From contig NZ_AFWV01000007.1 of assembly GCF_000223985.1 (NCBI RefSeq), positions 62,001 to 126,000 of the forward strand: a DNA stretch of 64,000 bases. The letters are read 5' to 3'. How positions within the stretch are numbered: the first letter of the stretch is position 1; the number at the start of each line of letters is the position of its first letter. Made by a program: the position numbers and the translations under genes. Shown piece after piece: positions 53,978 through 59,409 of this stretch. The notes beneath the pieces were generated by a model. That model had not been told where the DNA came from. It did not search any database and saw only the letters and a list, made by a program, of their open reading frames with translations. This DNA is from Thiocapsa marina 5811. GTDB taxonomy: Bacteria; Pseudomonadota; Gammaproteobacteria; Chromatiales; Chromatiaceae.

Positions 53978-54343
53978 ATGAACAAGCTTGCTACTGCTGC
54001 CGCCATCGCCGCCCTCCTCGGTGCTTCCGCTTCCGCGTCCGCTTGGTGGGGTCCGGGTGCCGGCGGGTACGGCCCGGGCTACGGCTCCGGTCTCGGCGAT
54101 GCCATGGGCGACATGTTCGGCGACGGCTACGGCGACTTCAACTTCGGCATGAGCGGCGGCGGCAGCGGTCGTGGTTACGGCCGCGGTCTGGGTCGCGGCT
54201 ACGGCAACGGCTACGGCTACAACAACCCCTACTACGGCTATGGCGCGCCTTACTACGGTGGCGGCTACCCTTACGCCTACCCCTACGCAGCGCCGGCCGC
54301 CCCGATGGCGCCCGTCGCTCCGGCTCAGCCCCAAGTCAAGTAA
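53978..54343 (+). CDS. Sulfur globule protein (SgpA/SgpB-like), second copy
   Basis: This 121-residue secreted protein has a clean signal peptide ([22 protein letters not shown], cleavage after about residue 22). The mature part begins WWGPG and is rich in Gly and Tyr, with [21 protein letters not shown] and [22 protein letters not shown]. It aligns in order with the protein at 41831 but has fewer YGYPG units. Such proteins form the coat of the sulfur globules that purple sulfur bacteria store in the periplasm during sulfide or thiosulfate oxidation. It has its own promoter and terminator and is probably highly expressed. Confidence 0.93.
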
Positions 54344-54359
54344 GATCCTTTGCTTGACT

Positions 54360-54417
54360 GCCGGTGAGCCTCCGGCTCACCGGCATATGGAAGGCCAGGC
54401 GTCAGCCTGGCCTTTTT
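54360..54417 (+). terminator. Double hairpin terminator after sulfur globule gene
   Basis: The first stem GCCGGTGAGCC/GGCTCACCGGC (54360-54384) is followed by a second, AGGCCAGGC/GCCTGGCCT, with TTTTT (54391-54417). The second is a classic intrinsic terminator. Tandem hairpins fit a strongly expressed monocistronic gene. Confidence 0.92.
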
Positions 54418-54472
54418 CGTTGTGCGCATTCGCGCGCGATGATCGGATCATCGCGTCCGCCGAGACCGACAT

Positions 54473-55831
54473 TCAACTCAACAGCAGCTTGCGGCCGAAC
54501 GGCTGATCCGGTGTCGCGCAGGACTCGGGTACGGCCCAGATCACCGGCCAGCCCGGGCGAAATCGAGCGGGACCGTCCAGGTCCGTCAGGACCACGCCGA
54601 TATCCGGTCCGTACTTGTCGGCCTCTTCGAGCAGGGGCGTGAAGTCGGTCCCGCCGCCGCCGTTGAACTCGATGTCTCGCAGATCCGATCGTCCGGGCTT
54701 GAAATGCGCGACCCGTTGCACCCGACAGTCGCCGATTACGAGGACCAGTGCGGCCTCCAAGCGTCGCGTGATCGCTTCGATCTCGCCGGCGAAGCGTTCC
54801 ATCAGGTCGTCCTCGACCGATCCCGACACGTCGACGATCACCACCAGTCGCGGCACTGACTTCGCCGCGCTGATGCCCGGTTCCCACGGCAGGCGTCTCC
54901 CCGACCCGAGCCGACCCTGATTCGCGATGTAGGATCGGGCCGGTCTGGACCAGGAGAGATTGGGTCGGGTCGAGAGACCGCGTGCCAGCTGGGTGCGCAG
55001 GATCTGCTCCCAAGGCGTGCGGATCTTGGGCAGATCGGCGATCAGGGCGCGCAGCATGGAATGCGCACCGTCTCCGGCATGCGCGCGCAGGATGCGCTCG
55101 CTCCACTCGCGCGCCTGCTCCGCCTCCGATTCGGGTTGCTTCCGTGCATCGGGTTGCGGGAAGAGGTCGGCGTGGGTCTCGGCGCCGAGTGACCTGACGC
55201 GCGCGGACATCGGGCCGTCCTCGCGGACTTCGGCTTGGGACGACGCGTCGATCTCCTCCCGCGACGCGCGGCCCTCCGCACCCGGTTGGCTGTCGCCGAT
55301 GCCGCCGCGGCGACGCCGGCGGGTCATTCGGGATCGGCCATTGTCTGCTGCCCTGCGGTCGTCGATGGCGCGATAGAGGCGCTCGACGTCCCATTCGAGC
55401 AGGGCCTTGTCGACACCGACATCGATACCGAGCGTGGCGAGCAGAAGCGTCTCCAGAAACACCGACGAGACCGGCAGCTCAAGCCAGCTCAAGTGACTCA
55501 AGGCGCTGTTGACGATAGCGTCCGCACAGATGTTGAACAGCTCGAGATCGACATCGCCCAGGAGCTGTTGCAGATCCAGATAGCGCTGCGGATGCCGCAA
55601 TGCGATATGCAGCACCTCGTGCGCGACGAGACCGACCTGCGCGTGCAGCGAAAGCCGCTCGAACGAAGCGCCGTAGTAGACGGTGTCCCCGTCGGTCGCA
55701 ACCGGACCCGGATCGATCTCGGGCGGCAAATCGCGATGCTTGACCCAGAGCGCCAGCCCGCCGGTGGACGGCGCGAATTCCACCATCTGCTGAATCGCGC
55801 GCGTCCCGCGGTGCCTGAAAAGATCATTCAT
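54473..55831 (-). CDS. HExxH and VWA-like domain protein (DUF2201 type)
   Basis: This 452-residue soluble protein combines an N-terminal metallopeptidase-like domain and a C-terminal VWA-like domain. HEVLH (H71-H75, then H80) fits a zinc-binding HExxH motif. The VWA-like part has the MIDAS-type DVSGS (LVVIVDVSGSVEDD) and GGGGTDF. The centre (about 180-265) is charged and probably flexible. Proteins of this DUF2201 type pair with MoxR ATPases, and the MoxR-like gene lies just upstream. Substrates are unknown. The start at 55831 gives MNDLFRHRGTRAIQQMV; the longer frame upstream is repeat sequence. Confidence 0.85.
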   Translation of the reverse strand: MNDLFRHRGTRAIQQMVEFAPSTGGLALWVKHRDLPPEIDPGPVATDGDTVYYGASFERLSLHAQVGLVAHEVLHIALRHPQRYLDLQQLLGDVDLELFNICADAIVNSALSHLSWLELPVSSVFLETLLLATLGIDVGVDKALLEWDVERLYRAIDDRRAADNGRSRMTRRRRRGGIGDSQPGAEGRASREEIDASSQAEVREDGPMSARVRSLGAETHADLFPQPDARKQPESEAEQAREWSERILRAHAGDGAHSMLRALIADLPKIRTPWEQILRTQLARGLSTRPNLSWSRPARSYIANQGRLGSGRRLPWEPGISAAKSVPRLVVIVDVSGSVEDDLMERFAGEIEAITRRLEAALVLVIGDCRVQRVAHFKPGRSDLRDIEFNGGGGTDFTPLLEEADKYGPDIGVVLTDLDGPARFRPGWPVIWAVPESCATPDQPFGRKLLLS

Positions 55832-55850
55832 CCTAAATCCGGCATTCGGA

Positions 55851-56034
55851 ACCGCAAAGGCGCAAAGGACGCGAGGGAAAACAAAGAACTGCAATGCGAA
55901 CAACGTTCACCCCTTGAGTGAATAGCGCCATTGAGGCAATTCATTGAACGCCTTTGCGTGCCTTGTCTTCTTTGCGGCTCAATTTCTCTCTTTAAGCTCA
56001 TCAGGATTCAACTCACCCTTCACCCTTCACCCTT
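55851..56034. repeat. CGCAAAGG inverted repeat and tandem CACCCTT heptamers
   Basis: ACCGCAAAGGCGCAAAGGAC (from 55851) faces CGCCTTTGCGTGCC and TCTTTGCGG (55949-55977), an imperfect inverted repeat. Three exact tandem CACCCTT units follow (56014-56034). Together they fill the 216-bp gap between the VWA-like and MoxR-like genes. No gene is seen. Confidence 0.65.
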
Positions 56035-56047
56035 CACCGCTCTCCAC

Positions 56048-57148
56048 TCACCCCTCGCTCCGACGCTCCTCCAGATAATGCCGGTAGCTTGCGCTGTCCA
56101 AAACCGTCGCCTCCAACCCGACCTCCAACGCCTTCTGCATCAGAAGCTCCATCGCGAGTGTCTGTGACTCTCGAATCGGCAGTGCCACCTCGCTTCGGAT
56201 GTCCGGAAACTGCTCGACGATCTCGAGCGCTCGCGCCATGGTGTCGGCGTCGGTGCTGGCGGCCAGCAGGCCGTAGATCATGCCGTAGAGCCCGTCGAGG
56301 GTCCGGGGAAGCAGGGCGGCGGTTTCCGGACCCGGCCGGCTCGCCAAGAGCTGCATCACGTCGGTGCCGGCCTGGATCTCGCGCAGCACTCCGAAGAACT
56401 CCGCCGCGTTGGCGGCCCCGATGCGTCCCTGCACGAAGACCCGTTTTGCGTTCTCGGAGAGGTTGGACTTCAGGACGTTGGAGATGTCCTCCCACCCGCG
56501 CGGACTGGCGCCGATCAGGTGGTCGTTGGCAAGCTGCGACTGGGTGTCGTCGAGCTTGTCCGGACGGACCTTGAGATAGGCCATCACCTCGGGCGCGAAA
56601 TCCATGGCCAACGCATGCGCCAGGAAGGAATCGATCACGGTCTGCACGTTGAAATGAAACATACGATCGGCGAGGGCCGTGCCCATATCGTGACAGACCG
56701 CGCCGTGGAAGCTGGCGTTGCCCGCGGCCACCACCTGCCAGCCGTCGGGCAACCGATAGTGACCGACCCGACGGTCGAGGATCAGCGAGTAGGCCGAGAT
56801 CTGAAGGCGCTGATCCGCAGCCGTGAGCTCGTCGAGAAAGAGGATGCCGTCCGGCTGGTCGGGCGAGGGCAGGAACTCGGGCGGGAACCAGACCGTCTTG
56901 GCCAGGGCGTCGTCGGCATAGATGGCGCCGCGGATATCGACCGGCTCGATCGTGGTCAGGCGCAGATCCACCAAGGGGACCCCGAAGTGGTCGGCCACCT
57001 GTCGCACGATCGAGGACTTGCCGACACCCCGGGTTCCCCAGAGCATGGATGCGCGCCGGCGCAGGGTCGGATCGGAATACTGCTCCACCAGCGCGGCCTT
57101 GGCTGCGGCGATCGAGACGGGGGGAATGTTCATCGGATTGCCGAGCAT
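56048..57148 (-). CDS. MoxR-like AAA+ ATPase
   Basis: This 366-residue ATPase has Walker A GTRGVGKS (38-45), Walker B GILFLDELTAAD and sensor region VVAAGNASFHG. It belongs to the MoxR-type AAA group that works with VWA proteins, often as a chaperone that remodels or activates enzyme complexes. It lies between a membrane protein gene and the VWA-like gene on the same strand. The start at 57148 (MLGNPMNIPPV) is preferred; the Met five codons later is also possible. Confidence 0.9.
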   Translation of the reverse strand: MLGNPMNIPPVSIAAAKAALVEQYSDPTLRRRASMLWGTRGVGKSSIVRQVADHFGVPLVDLRLTTIEPVDIRGAIYADDALAKTVWFPPEFLPSPDQPDGILFLDELTAADQRLQISAYSLILDRRVGHYRLPDGWQVVAAGNASFHGAVCHDMGTALADRMFHFNVQTVIDSFLAHALAMDFAPEVMAYLKVRPDKLDDTQSQLANDHLIGASPRGWEDISNVLKSNLSENAKRVFVQGRIGAANAAEFFGVLREIQAGTDVMQLLASRPGPETAALLPRTLDGLYGMIYGLLAASTDADTMARALEIVEQFPDIRSEVALPIRESQTLAMELLMQKALEVGLEATVLDSASYRHYLEERRSEG

Positions 57149-57171
57149 CGTGACTGCTGATCTCCCAAAGT

Positions 57172-57200
57172 TAAACCGCGTCCCGTTAGACACGCACCCG
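57172..57200. repeat. Short fragment with type A terminus
   Basis: TAAACCGCGTCCCGTTAGAC matches the left end of type A elements over about 15 bp. It lies just upstream of the MoxR-like gene, and no partner end is found. It is a weak assignment. Confidence 0.35.
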
Positions 57201-57248
57201 TATGAGGTGGCTCGTGATTGTAAGTCAGTTGGTCGGTGAAGGGCGCCG

Positions 57249-58265
57249 TCATGCGTCCTGCGTCGATGTCTTCGGCATCTCGCCGGGCGGGCTCGACGGC
57301 ACGTCTCGCCATGCGGATGCGCTCAAAGGTTTCGGGAAGGGCGGGATCTCGATGCGCGGCATTTCCTTCATCGAGAAGAAGAGGACCATGAGCAGGGGCG
57401 GGGAGTGGAAGATCAGCATGCGGATCAGGGATTCGTCCGAGAGCTCCAGAAACTGGATCGCGGGTGCGCCGAAGATCAGACCCAGACCGATCAGCAAGGG
57501 AAGCGCGCGCCGAAAAACGACATTCCAACGTGCCGCAACCAGTCGCTCATGGTAGCGTGCCGGGGGCTCGCGGAGCGTCTCGGCCAGATGCTCGACGGTC
57601 CGGGTCAGCTTCACCTCGGCGTCGCGGCTGCGGTCGGGCTCCTTCCCGCGCAAGCGCAAGGTACTCTTCCAACAGGCCTTGAGACGATTCAGACGACGCC
57701 AATCCCATCCGATCACCGCCAGCATGTCTTCGGGCAACGCGATCGTATCGCCGTCCTCGGCATGCAGCTCAAGCTCGGCCGGCATGCCGCGCCCGGTTTG
57801 CGCCTTCATCGTCAGGGTCAGACCCTCGACCTGCGCCGCCCCGCGCGTCAGGATCAGACGGGTTGGTGACACGGCGTCGACGGCCCCTCCCGTGCTGGAT
57901 TCCAAACGGTAGCTTCGGGCGATTCGGTAGGTGCGTTTCTCGCGGAAATGACGCCTTGGATCAACCGACTCGAGGTGATCGAGAAGGTCGACGGGGTTGC
58001 TGCCTTCGACAACCAGATCCGCCTCCAAGCCATCGGGACGGCGAAGGGTGCGGGTGAGCCGGAATCGGTCGGGTTTGGGGTTCTCGAGCAGCAGGGTCTC
58101 GCGCACGCCGCTCAGCTCTGCTGCGTCCTCGCCGTGATCGAACGGCTTGAAGAGGAGGCGTCGCTCGAGACGGTCGCTCGCGGCGAGATCGACATGCCGC
58201 GAGCGCCGCGTGAAGGGCTCGACCAGGGTGAAGATCTCGTGATGCGTCAATGGGTGCGAGCTCAT
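57249..58265 (-). CDS. Membrane protein of unknown function linked to MoxR/VWA genes
   Basis: This 338-residue protein has a largely soluble N-terminal 260 residues, rich in charged residues (HLESVDPRRHFREKRTYRIARSY). Two membrane helices follow near the C-terminus (RRALPLLIGLGLIFGAPAI and LIRMLIFHSPPLLMVLFFSM). I do not recognise a domain. It is the first gene of the minus-strand trio with the MoxR-like ATPase and HExxH/VWA-like protein, separated by 100 bp from the ATPase gene. It may anchor the system to the membrane. The start at 58265 gives MSSHPLTHHEIF. Confidence 0.72.
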   Translation of the reverse strand: MSSHPLTHHEIFTLVEPFTRRSRHVDLAASDRLERRLLFKPFDHGEDAAELSGVRETLLLENPKPDRFRLTRTLRRPDGLEADLVVEGSNPVDLLDHLESVDPRRHFREKRTYRIARSYRLESSTGGAVDAVSPTRLILTRGAAQVEGLTLTMKAQTGRGMPAELELHAEDGDTIALPEDMLAVIGWDWRRLNRLKACWKSTLRLRGKEPDRSRDAEVKLTRTVEHLAETLREPPARYHERLVAARWNVVFRRALPLLIGLGLIFGAPAIQFLELSDESLIRMLIFHSPPLLMVLFFSMKEMPRIEIPPFPKPLSASAWRDVPSSPPGEMPKTSTQDA

Positions 58266-58632
58266 AAGCAGTCCTCGCCGGAAACGGATGGGTGAGTCCG
58301 GGACGTCGCCGCGTCCGCATCGAGCCGCGCGTCCGAACCCCAACTGTAACGTCCGGATATCCTTGCGCAACATCAACAATTATCCGGTTATCCTAAACCG
58401 CGCCCGGTGGGGTATGCGTCGTTTGTTGGACTGGCGCGGTCTAGATCCGCACTCCCGGTCGACACCTGTTCAGGCGCGCCCGGACCCGGTTCGTGGGATC
58501 ATAGGCGGGTTGCCGAGACCGCCGTGCGCGTCGCCTCGCGAAGATCGCCACTCGCTGAGTCCTCGCACCGAGACGCCGAGCACGATGGTGCTCGGCGCAG
58601 CCCTCTAGACGATCGAATCCCCGGAGCCGTCC
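58266..58632. other. Divergent region before gloB
   Basis: This 367-bp stretch separates the divergent trio and gloB. It contains the short repeat B3 and a perfect hairpin, CGCCGAGCAC with GTGCTCGGCG (58574-58597), about 36 bp before gloB. The hairpin may regulate or terminate transcription. No gene is visible. Confidence 0.5.
58394..58443. repeat. Short derivative of the type B element, copy B3 (50 bp)
   Basis: It starts TAAACCGCGCCCGG and ends GGCGCGGTCTA, like the two ends of a type B copy. The first 37 bp match the reverse complement of B2, while the internal part is missing. It appears to be an internal deletion derivative. Confidence 0.65.
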
Positions 58633-59409
58633 ATGCTCGAGATCCGCCCCATCCCTGCCTTCGAGGACAATTACATCTGGCTGCTGACCGAGACGCCGGG
58701 AACAGCCGTGGTCGTGGACCCGGGCGATGCCGATCCGGTTCTCGATCGTCTACGCGCCGAGGATCGCATCCTCACCGCCATCCTGGTCACCCACCACCAC
58801 GGCGATCATATCGGCGGATTGAGCGAGCTGCGCTCGGTCTTTCCCGAGGTGCGCATCTATGGCCCCGTCGATCGGCGAATCCGCGACCTGACCGATCCGA
58901 CGGGCGAGGGTGCGGTCGTGCGCCCGCAGGGCCTGAGCATCGATTTTAGAGTGATGGAGGTGCCCGGTCACACCTCCGCACACATCGCCTACCTGGGCGC
59001 CGGCAGCCTGTTCTGCGGCGATACGCTGTTTGCCGGCGGCTGCGGGCGCGTCTTCGACGGCACCTTCGAGCAGCTCTCGGATTCCTTGGATCGCATCGCC
59101 GCGCTGCCGCCCGAGACCCTCGTCTACTGCGCGCACGAATACACGCTCGCCAATCTCGGTTTTGCCGACTGGGTCGAGCCCGGCAGCCCGACCTTGAGCG
59201 CGCGGATGGATTCCGACCGCAGACGACGGGAGATGGATCTGCCCACGGTTCCGTCGCGTCTGGAGCTCGAGCTGGCGACCAACCCCTTCCTGCGCACCCG
59301 CGTGCCGGAGGTCGTCCGGGCCGCCGAGCGTGCCGCGGGACGCCCGCTCGGCTCGCCGCGCGAGGTCTTCAAGGCGTTGCGGCAGTGGAAGGACGATCAC
59401 TACGATTAG
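58633..59409 (+). CDS. gloB: Hydroxyacylglutathione hydrolase (glyoxalase II)
   Basis: This 258-residue metallo-beta-lactamase-fold enzyme hydrolyses S-lactoylglutathione in methylglyoxal detoxification. The dinuclear metal motif THHHGDH (H54, H56, D58, H59) is intact, as are PGHTSAHI, the GDTLFAGGCGRVF loop and CAHEYT. The C-terminal substrate domain ends in KWDDHYD-like WKDDHYD. In E. coli gloB sits beside yafS and rnhA; here it has moved about 19 kb away. Confidence 0.95.
   Translation: MLEIRPIPAFEDNYIWLLTETPGTAVVVDPGDADPVLDRLRAEDRILTAILVTHHHGDHIGGLSELRSVFPEVRIYGPVDRRIRDLTDPTGEGAVVRPQGLSIDFRVMEVPGHTSAHIAYLGAGSLFCGDTLFAGGCGRVFDGTFEQLSDSLDRIAALPPETLVYCAHEYTLANLGFADWVEPGSPTLSARMDSDRRRREMDLPTVPSRLELELATNPFLRTRVPEVVRAAERAAGRPLGSPREVFKALRQWKDDHYD

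Follow-up and report, generated by a model that had tools for sequence, protein, structure and literature searches.

Introduction

Machines that combine a MoxR-type ATPase with a VWA protein are widespread, and few of them have a known client. NorQ and NorD drive the insertion of iron into the membrane enzyme cNOR, the metal ion-dependent adhesion site (MIDAS) of NorD being required for active cNOR and not for NorQ binding (PMC9976466, PMC13036017). A pair of a MoxR protein and a metallopeptidase-vWA protein is described in jumbo phages, with a proposed role in virion assembly (PMC7824862). The VMAP-MoxR-vWA ternary conflict systems have the 5'-3' order third protein, MoxR, vWA (PMC7159879). 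Here we describe a three-gene locus of Thiocapsa marina 5811, located at positions 54473-58265 of a 64,000-nucleotide stretch of contig NZ_AFWV01000007.1 (hereafter the window, to which positions refer). The three genes, all on the minus strand, encode a membrane protein (P0001), a MoxR-type AAA+ ATPase (P0002) and a protein with zincin-like and VWA-like domains (P0003). The initial annotation, made from the sequence alone, correctly recognized three adjacent genes here and missed their association with phototrophy. For this trio we observe a conserved gene order, joint occurrence across genomes, divergence that is correlated among the three proteins, conserved motifs, the loss of a catalytic glutamate in some members and enrichment in phototrophs. 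We favor, with confidence and doubt evenly balanced, the reading that the trio is a single membrane-tethered MoxR-VWA remodelling system that would aid a membrane complex connected with anoxygenic phototrophy.

Conservation of the Three-Gene Locus

Among the 61 loci examined, 35 hold all three genes, and the order P0001>P0002>P0003 is kept in every one of the 35, with median gaps of ~94 and ~41 bases between matched ends (34 of these loci). The script labelled 34 loci P0001>P0002>P0003; the locus of G455, labelled M>D>F0, keeps this order and carries a further P0001 behind P0003, so that two copies flank the pair.

P0001 was found in 45 of the 210 genomes of the window's order. A search of the order with P0003 at an E-value of 1e-20 returned 44 genomes, 43 of them with close relatives (52-100% identical over the listed pieces), and such a relative is present in 43 of the 45 genomes with P0001 versus none of the 165 without it. 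It should be mentioned that one P0001-negative genome (G167) has a P0003 match of 29% identity at 9e-21, which was not counted as close, and that the two P0001-positive genomes without a close relative, G143 and G155, have short contigs and partial P0001 matches. In the betaproteobacterial family of G455, P0001 and P0003 occur in the identical 11 of 250 genomes. The initial annotation had called for this co-occurrence check, naming non-conservation of P0001 as grounds for refutation; together with the gene order and correlated divergence, the counts bear out its unrecognized first gene as a conserved third member. Across an even draw of 398 genomes of the phylum, P0001 was found in two, the window's own and G455. 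The P0003 domain PF13203 is present in 177 of the 210 genomes of the order, at least 134 of which lack a close P0003 relative. P0001 is therefore tied to one lineage of the MoxR-DUF2201 pair; the two pairs of a second type that were examined, L073 in the window genome and L099 in G151, have no P0001 in the fetched stretches.

Alignments for the motif, tree and distance work comprised 33 of the 35 three-gene loci, the window included; L101 and L129 were left out by the length filter, and a redundant motif count over 89 loci was not used. The distance matrices of the three proteins correlate at 0.79-0.85 over these 33 loci, a level reached by 0 of 2000 permutations, and correlations of this size can come from shared descent alone.

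Association with Phototrophy

A match to the reaction centre family Photo_RC (PF00124) over the cut-off was taken as the marker of phototrophy. This marker is present in 53 of the 56 genomes with P0001. The three without a match over the cut-off are G148, G845, which is 79% complete, and G054, which has an edge match below the cut-off. In the betaproteobacterial family, the reaction centre was found in 41 of 250 genomes, including 10 of the 11 with P0001 and 31 of the 239 without it (Fisher p 5e-8); the P0001 and reaction-centre counts apparently come from one draw. Within the window's order, it was found in 20 of 69 P0001-negative genomes, which were picked by hand out of the 165. Counted by genus, the marker is present in 7/7 betaproteobacterial genera with P0001 versus 31/141 overall (p 1.4e-5), and in 9/9 genera of the order with P0001 versus 7/37 tested genera without it (p 1.0e-5), all of these p values overstating the significance, as the genomes are related and the values are uncorrected for phylogeny. 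In a midpoint-rooted tree, beta- and gammaproteobacterial trios are interleaved, with Thiocapsa among the betas. Transfer between the groups is therefore possible, so that the two enrichment tests may be less than fully independent of each other.

In one genus, the trio adjoins genes that we take to be bch genes, those called bchI, bchD and bchO having been checked by Pfam to domain level. The trio of G704 is divergent from the adjoining bchI-bchD-bchO. In G799, P0001 and bchI are separated by a DUF3422 gene (L148:12108-13415). Based on the distribution as a whole, the trio belongs to some phototrophs as an accessory and is no core component of photosynthesis.

The Zincin-like and VWA-like Domains of P0003

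P0003 (54473-55831, minus strand; 452 aa) matches PF13203 (DUF2201_N, zincin-like) with 224.2 bits against a cut-off of 23.2 and PF09967 (DUF2201, VWA-like) with 122.6 bits against 26.4. The HExxH motif (residues 71-75; 55607-55621, minus strand) is intact in the window protein, with H71, E72 and H75 in place, in agreement with the zinc-peptidase motif that the initial annotation had assigned to the VWA-like partner. The VWA domain carries the known MIDAS pattern of such domains, with the DxSxS motif at residues 334-338 (54818-54832, minus strand) and D334, S336, S338, T395 and D417 all present. Over the 33 aligned members, H71, H75, H80, D104 and N108 are invariant, as are D334, S336, S338 and T395; D417 is found in 32, with one gap. 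A structure model of P0003 was poor (predicted local distance difference test score, pLDDT, 54) and was discarded.

The glutamate of HExxH is the catalytic base of zincins. The trio clade has not kept it throughout: 20 members have E at position 72, 12 have Q and one has A, so that 13 of 33 have it replaced. Fitch parsimony gives three changes from E, the first on a gamma clade of 11 members with a support of 0.97, the others at L139, whose placement in the tree is weakly supported, and L141. An ATP-driven membrane protease, in which the MoxR ring and the VWA part feed membrane or misassembled proteins to a cutting zincin domain, would agree with the intact motif of the window protein and of the other members with E72, with the invariance of H71, H75, H80 and D104, and with the retention of the glutamate in distant relatives (the sister pair, one phage and three plasmids; 14 plasmid records hold a distant DUF2201). 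This explanation is nevertheless unlikely, as the other parts of the system are retained where the glutamate has been lost, including throughout the well-supported clade. The replacement of the catalytic glutamate while the presumed metal ligands stay invariant makes proteolysis, one of the two roles considered in the initial annotation, improbable as the shared function; cleavage by the window copy, which keeps E72, is possible. A metal site that lacks the catalytic glutamate points to a putative binding or structural role.

It is noted that PHROGs (phrog_1314) and several phage records (e.g. L235:3273-4553) give the phage relatives of P0003 the label 'HNH endonuclease'. Related records say metallopeptidase, and the phage proteins align with both the zincin-like and the VWA motifs. 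The endonuclease label looks wrong.

The Membrane Protein P0001 and the ATPase P0002

P0001 (57249-58265, minus strand; 338 aa) consists of a soluble alpha/beta part of residues ~1-240 followed by a C-terminal transmembrane hairpin predicted from hydropathy (residues 254-273 and 279-298; 57372-57506, minus strand). The two hydrophobic segments (~254-273 and ~279-298) are found in all 33 aligned proteins. Both termini may be cytosolic, judging from the arginines R252 and R253 ahead of the first segment and from the charged tail that follows the second. No match to P0001 was found in Pfam (E up to 1), NCBIfam, PHROGs or PADLOC, and among 22 relatives the only matches were weak ones, from a single member in Pfam and a single member in NCBIfam. 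Its profile matched a single chain among the PDB sequences, with E 0.82, and its profile comparison with the alignment of DUF2201 found nothing. A search of 50,697 phage records gave no P0001 match at E 1e-5, and a pattern scan of IMG/VR gave none either; no relative was confirmed in viral contigs scanned with the alignments of P0003 and P0001, and the plasmid search found no P0001. As far as can be told from such comparisons, P0001 is a previously unclassified, orphan family.

In the structure model of P0001 (pLDDT 80), the soluble part is rich in beta structure, and the C-terminal helices have lower confidence. The best match by Foldseek had E 0.03, and the best by VIA had Z 5.6 (root-mean-square deviation of 4.0 across 106 residues); type III secretion chaperones scored close to Z 5. 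These scores lie below the level that the tool states as typical of unrelated models, so no fold is claimed. Lone extra paralogues of P0001 are common, for example 3' of a rho-like gene in Thiocapsa. One such Thiocapsa paralogue, 42% identical (L072:7594-8589; G000:C59:132593-133573), lies downstream of genes that by eye we presume to be thioredoxin-like and rho-like.

P0002 (56048-57148, minus strand) matches PF00004 above the cut-off of that family and AAA_5 slightly below its own. Over 263 residues it is 35% identical to a plasmid protein annotated 'MoxR family ATPase', encoded 5' of a 'VWA-like' gene. It is of the MoxR type both by its gene's position beside a VWA partner and by its relation to an annotated MoxR protein, in keeping with the chaperone-like MoxR and VWA pair first suggested for this locus. 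The Walker A motif GTRGVGKS (residues 53-60; 57014-57037, minus strand) has seven of eight positions invariant in the 33 members, the second position being T in 26; in the Walker B motif ILFLDE (residues 117-122; 56828-56845, minus strand) FLDE is invariant, and the sensor 1 Asn is present throughout (AAGN, with one V for A). The open reading frame (ORF) begins at GTG 57193, and the alignment to most relatives begins no earlier than residue 11-24, so that the start is probably ATG 57148 or 57133. Neither P0002 nor P0003 has a match among PDB sequences.

Proposed Function

In the membrane-tethered system that we favor, P0002 would form an AAA+ ring, as expected of its family. By analogy, P0003 could be the VWA adaptor that links this ring to the client through its MIDAS and its metal domain, the zincin-like domain probably holding a metal and binding the client, generally without cutting it. 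Based on its predicted topology, P0001 would be the membrane receptor, with a cytosolic N-terminal domain and a hairpin that sits in either the inner or the intracytoplasmic membrane, and may bring P0002 and P0003 to the membrane in a complex. The trio would then probably assemble, repair or load with cofactor a phototrophy-linked membrane complex, comparable to what NorQD does for nitric oxide reductase. The NorQD precedent of a MoxR/VWA pair working on a membrane enzyme supports a membrane client, and the phototroph link would make a photosynthetic or pigment-synthesis complex the first-choice candidate. More specifically and more tentatively, the trio may serve purple gamma- and betaproteobacteria as a machine dedicated to photosynthesis assembly, in which the new hairpin receptor P0001 (often two paralogues) recruits a MoxR ring and its VWA/pseudo-zincin adaptor. 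At the intracytoplasmic membrane, such a machine would assemble, metallate or repair a photosynthetic or bacteriochlorophyll-synthesis complex.

Several results speak against the favored picture, both as to the unity of the trio and as to its tie to photosynthesis. In the draft genomes G144, G145 and G148, P0001 and P0003 are on separate contigs; in G144 the P0002-P0003 pair is also split by ~6.5 kb, and in G145 P0002 was not found in the stretch read around P0003. P0001 lacks a confident structural match by Foldseek and VIA. The significance of the enrichment is inflated by relatedness, and the bch adjacency is confined to the genus of G704 and G799. The trio is dispensable for phototrophy, as 31 of the 41 betaproteobacterial genomes with a reaction centre and 20 tested genomes of the order with one have no P0001. 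Outside the class, P0001 was found in 0 of 9 genomes with a reaction centre, membership of the draw being deduced from handle numbers. Within up to 40 kb around the presumed pufLM genes, no gene separates 22 phototrophs with the trio from 21 without it (best uncorrected p 0.02; crude ORF calling; G052 and G806 left out). PpsR binds the consensus TGT-N12-ACA, and a site of this type was found 5' of P0001 in 0 of 56 cases, with 1.7 expected.

These last observations, namely the many phototrophs without the trio, the lack of a pufLM neighbour that tracks with it and the absence of PpsR-type sites, also favor an indirect link, in which the trio serves a trait that co-occurs with phototrophy, such as intracytoplasmic membranes, sulfur or carbon metabolism, or large genomes. 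The neighbours on both sides in the window, among which tblastn with 12 queries found no photosynthesis gene, agree with it as well. We consider the indirect link rather doubtful, given the enrichment in two families, which extends to 7/7 and 9/9 genera, and the trio adjoining bch genes in one genus.

Spacer Insertion and Flanking Genes

In the window genome the spacer between P0002 and P0003 measures 216 bases and contains an insertion of ~165 bases (55833-55997, minus strand) directly 5' of the P0003 start codon. This insertion is missing from five Thiocapsa relatives and is a dispersed repeat, with 13 genome matches listed including itself, several of them short. GATGA stands on either side (55828-56002), which may be a target duplication. 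No sigma-70-like promoter pattern was found in 54300-58650. P0001 of the window is 85-90% identical to that of four named Thiocapsa records and 71% identical to that of T. imhoffii. The genes flanking the trio are common to L063, L064, L067, L078 and the window, and differ in T. imhoffii (L066).

Comparison with Known Systems

We have compared the trio to the VMAP ternary systems, which likewise have three genes in the order third protein, MoxR, vWA (PMC7159879). A conflict (defence) system of this kind would also fit the divergence of the first gene, P0001 being the fastest to diverge (median distances 1.00 for P0001, 0.24 for P0002 and 0.55 for P0003). In contrast to such systems, P0001 matches no Pfam family even at the permissive threshold used above, although Pfam may not hold every VMAP domain. 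PADLOC gave no match for P0001 or P0003 and weak ones only for P0002 (PDC-S01 0.006, IetA 0.029, BrxF 0.031), and the neighbours shared by L063, L064, L067, L078 and the window, T. imhoffii apart, also argue against defence, which we regard as very improbable.

The jumbo and N4-like phage pair resembles the trio in having an AAA+ gene followed by a zincin-like and VWA gene. In the N4-like Roseobacter phage RD-1410W1-01, where the pair is annotated, the identities are 22-24% for P0003 and 29% for P0002. The phage pairs differ in that no P0001 match was found in the phage records. The second MoxR-DUF2201 pair of the window genome (G000:C61, L073; also L099) has the same families in the same order, with 35% and 26% identity, and unlike the trio has no P0001 in the fetched stretch. 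An M48 peptidase-TPR gene (L073:7695-9404) follows this second pair in the window genome.

NorQ/NorD is similar to the trio in joining a MoxR AAA+ protein with a MIDAS-bearing VWA partner, and it acts on a membrane enzyme by inserting metal; this likeness is drawn from published descriptions. BchI and BchD are the motor parts of magnesium chelatase. They share with the trio AAA+ and VWA parts and phototrophy, and are adjacent to it in one genus. Alignments of BchI to P0002 cover short stretches only, the best at 23.9 bits, and both systems stand side by side.

The strictly co-inherited membrane partner and the narrow phototroph link make the client of this MoxR-VWA system testable, and Thiocapsa roseopersicina, a relative that carries the trio (L064), is genetically tractable. 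Where the catalytic glutamate has been lost naturally, a binding role of DUF2201_N is set apart from cleavage; this has implications for the DUF2201 family at large and for its phage versions, labelled as peptidases or HNH endonucleases. Neither the membrane component nor the phototroph link of the trio was found in the open-access papers searched, as judged by titles and the starts of abstracts. The MoxR-DUF2201 pair itself is already known, phages included; the parts that would be new are the membrane component and the link with phototrophs.

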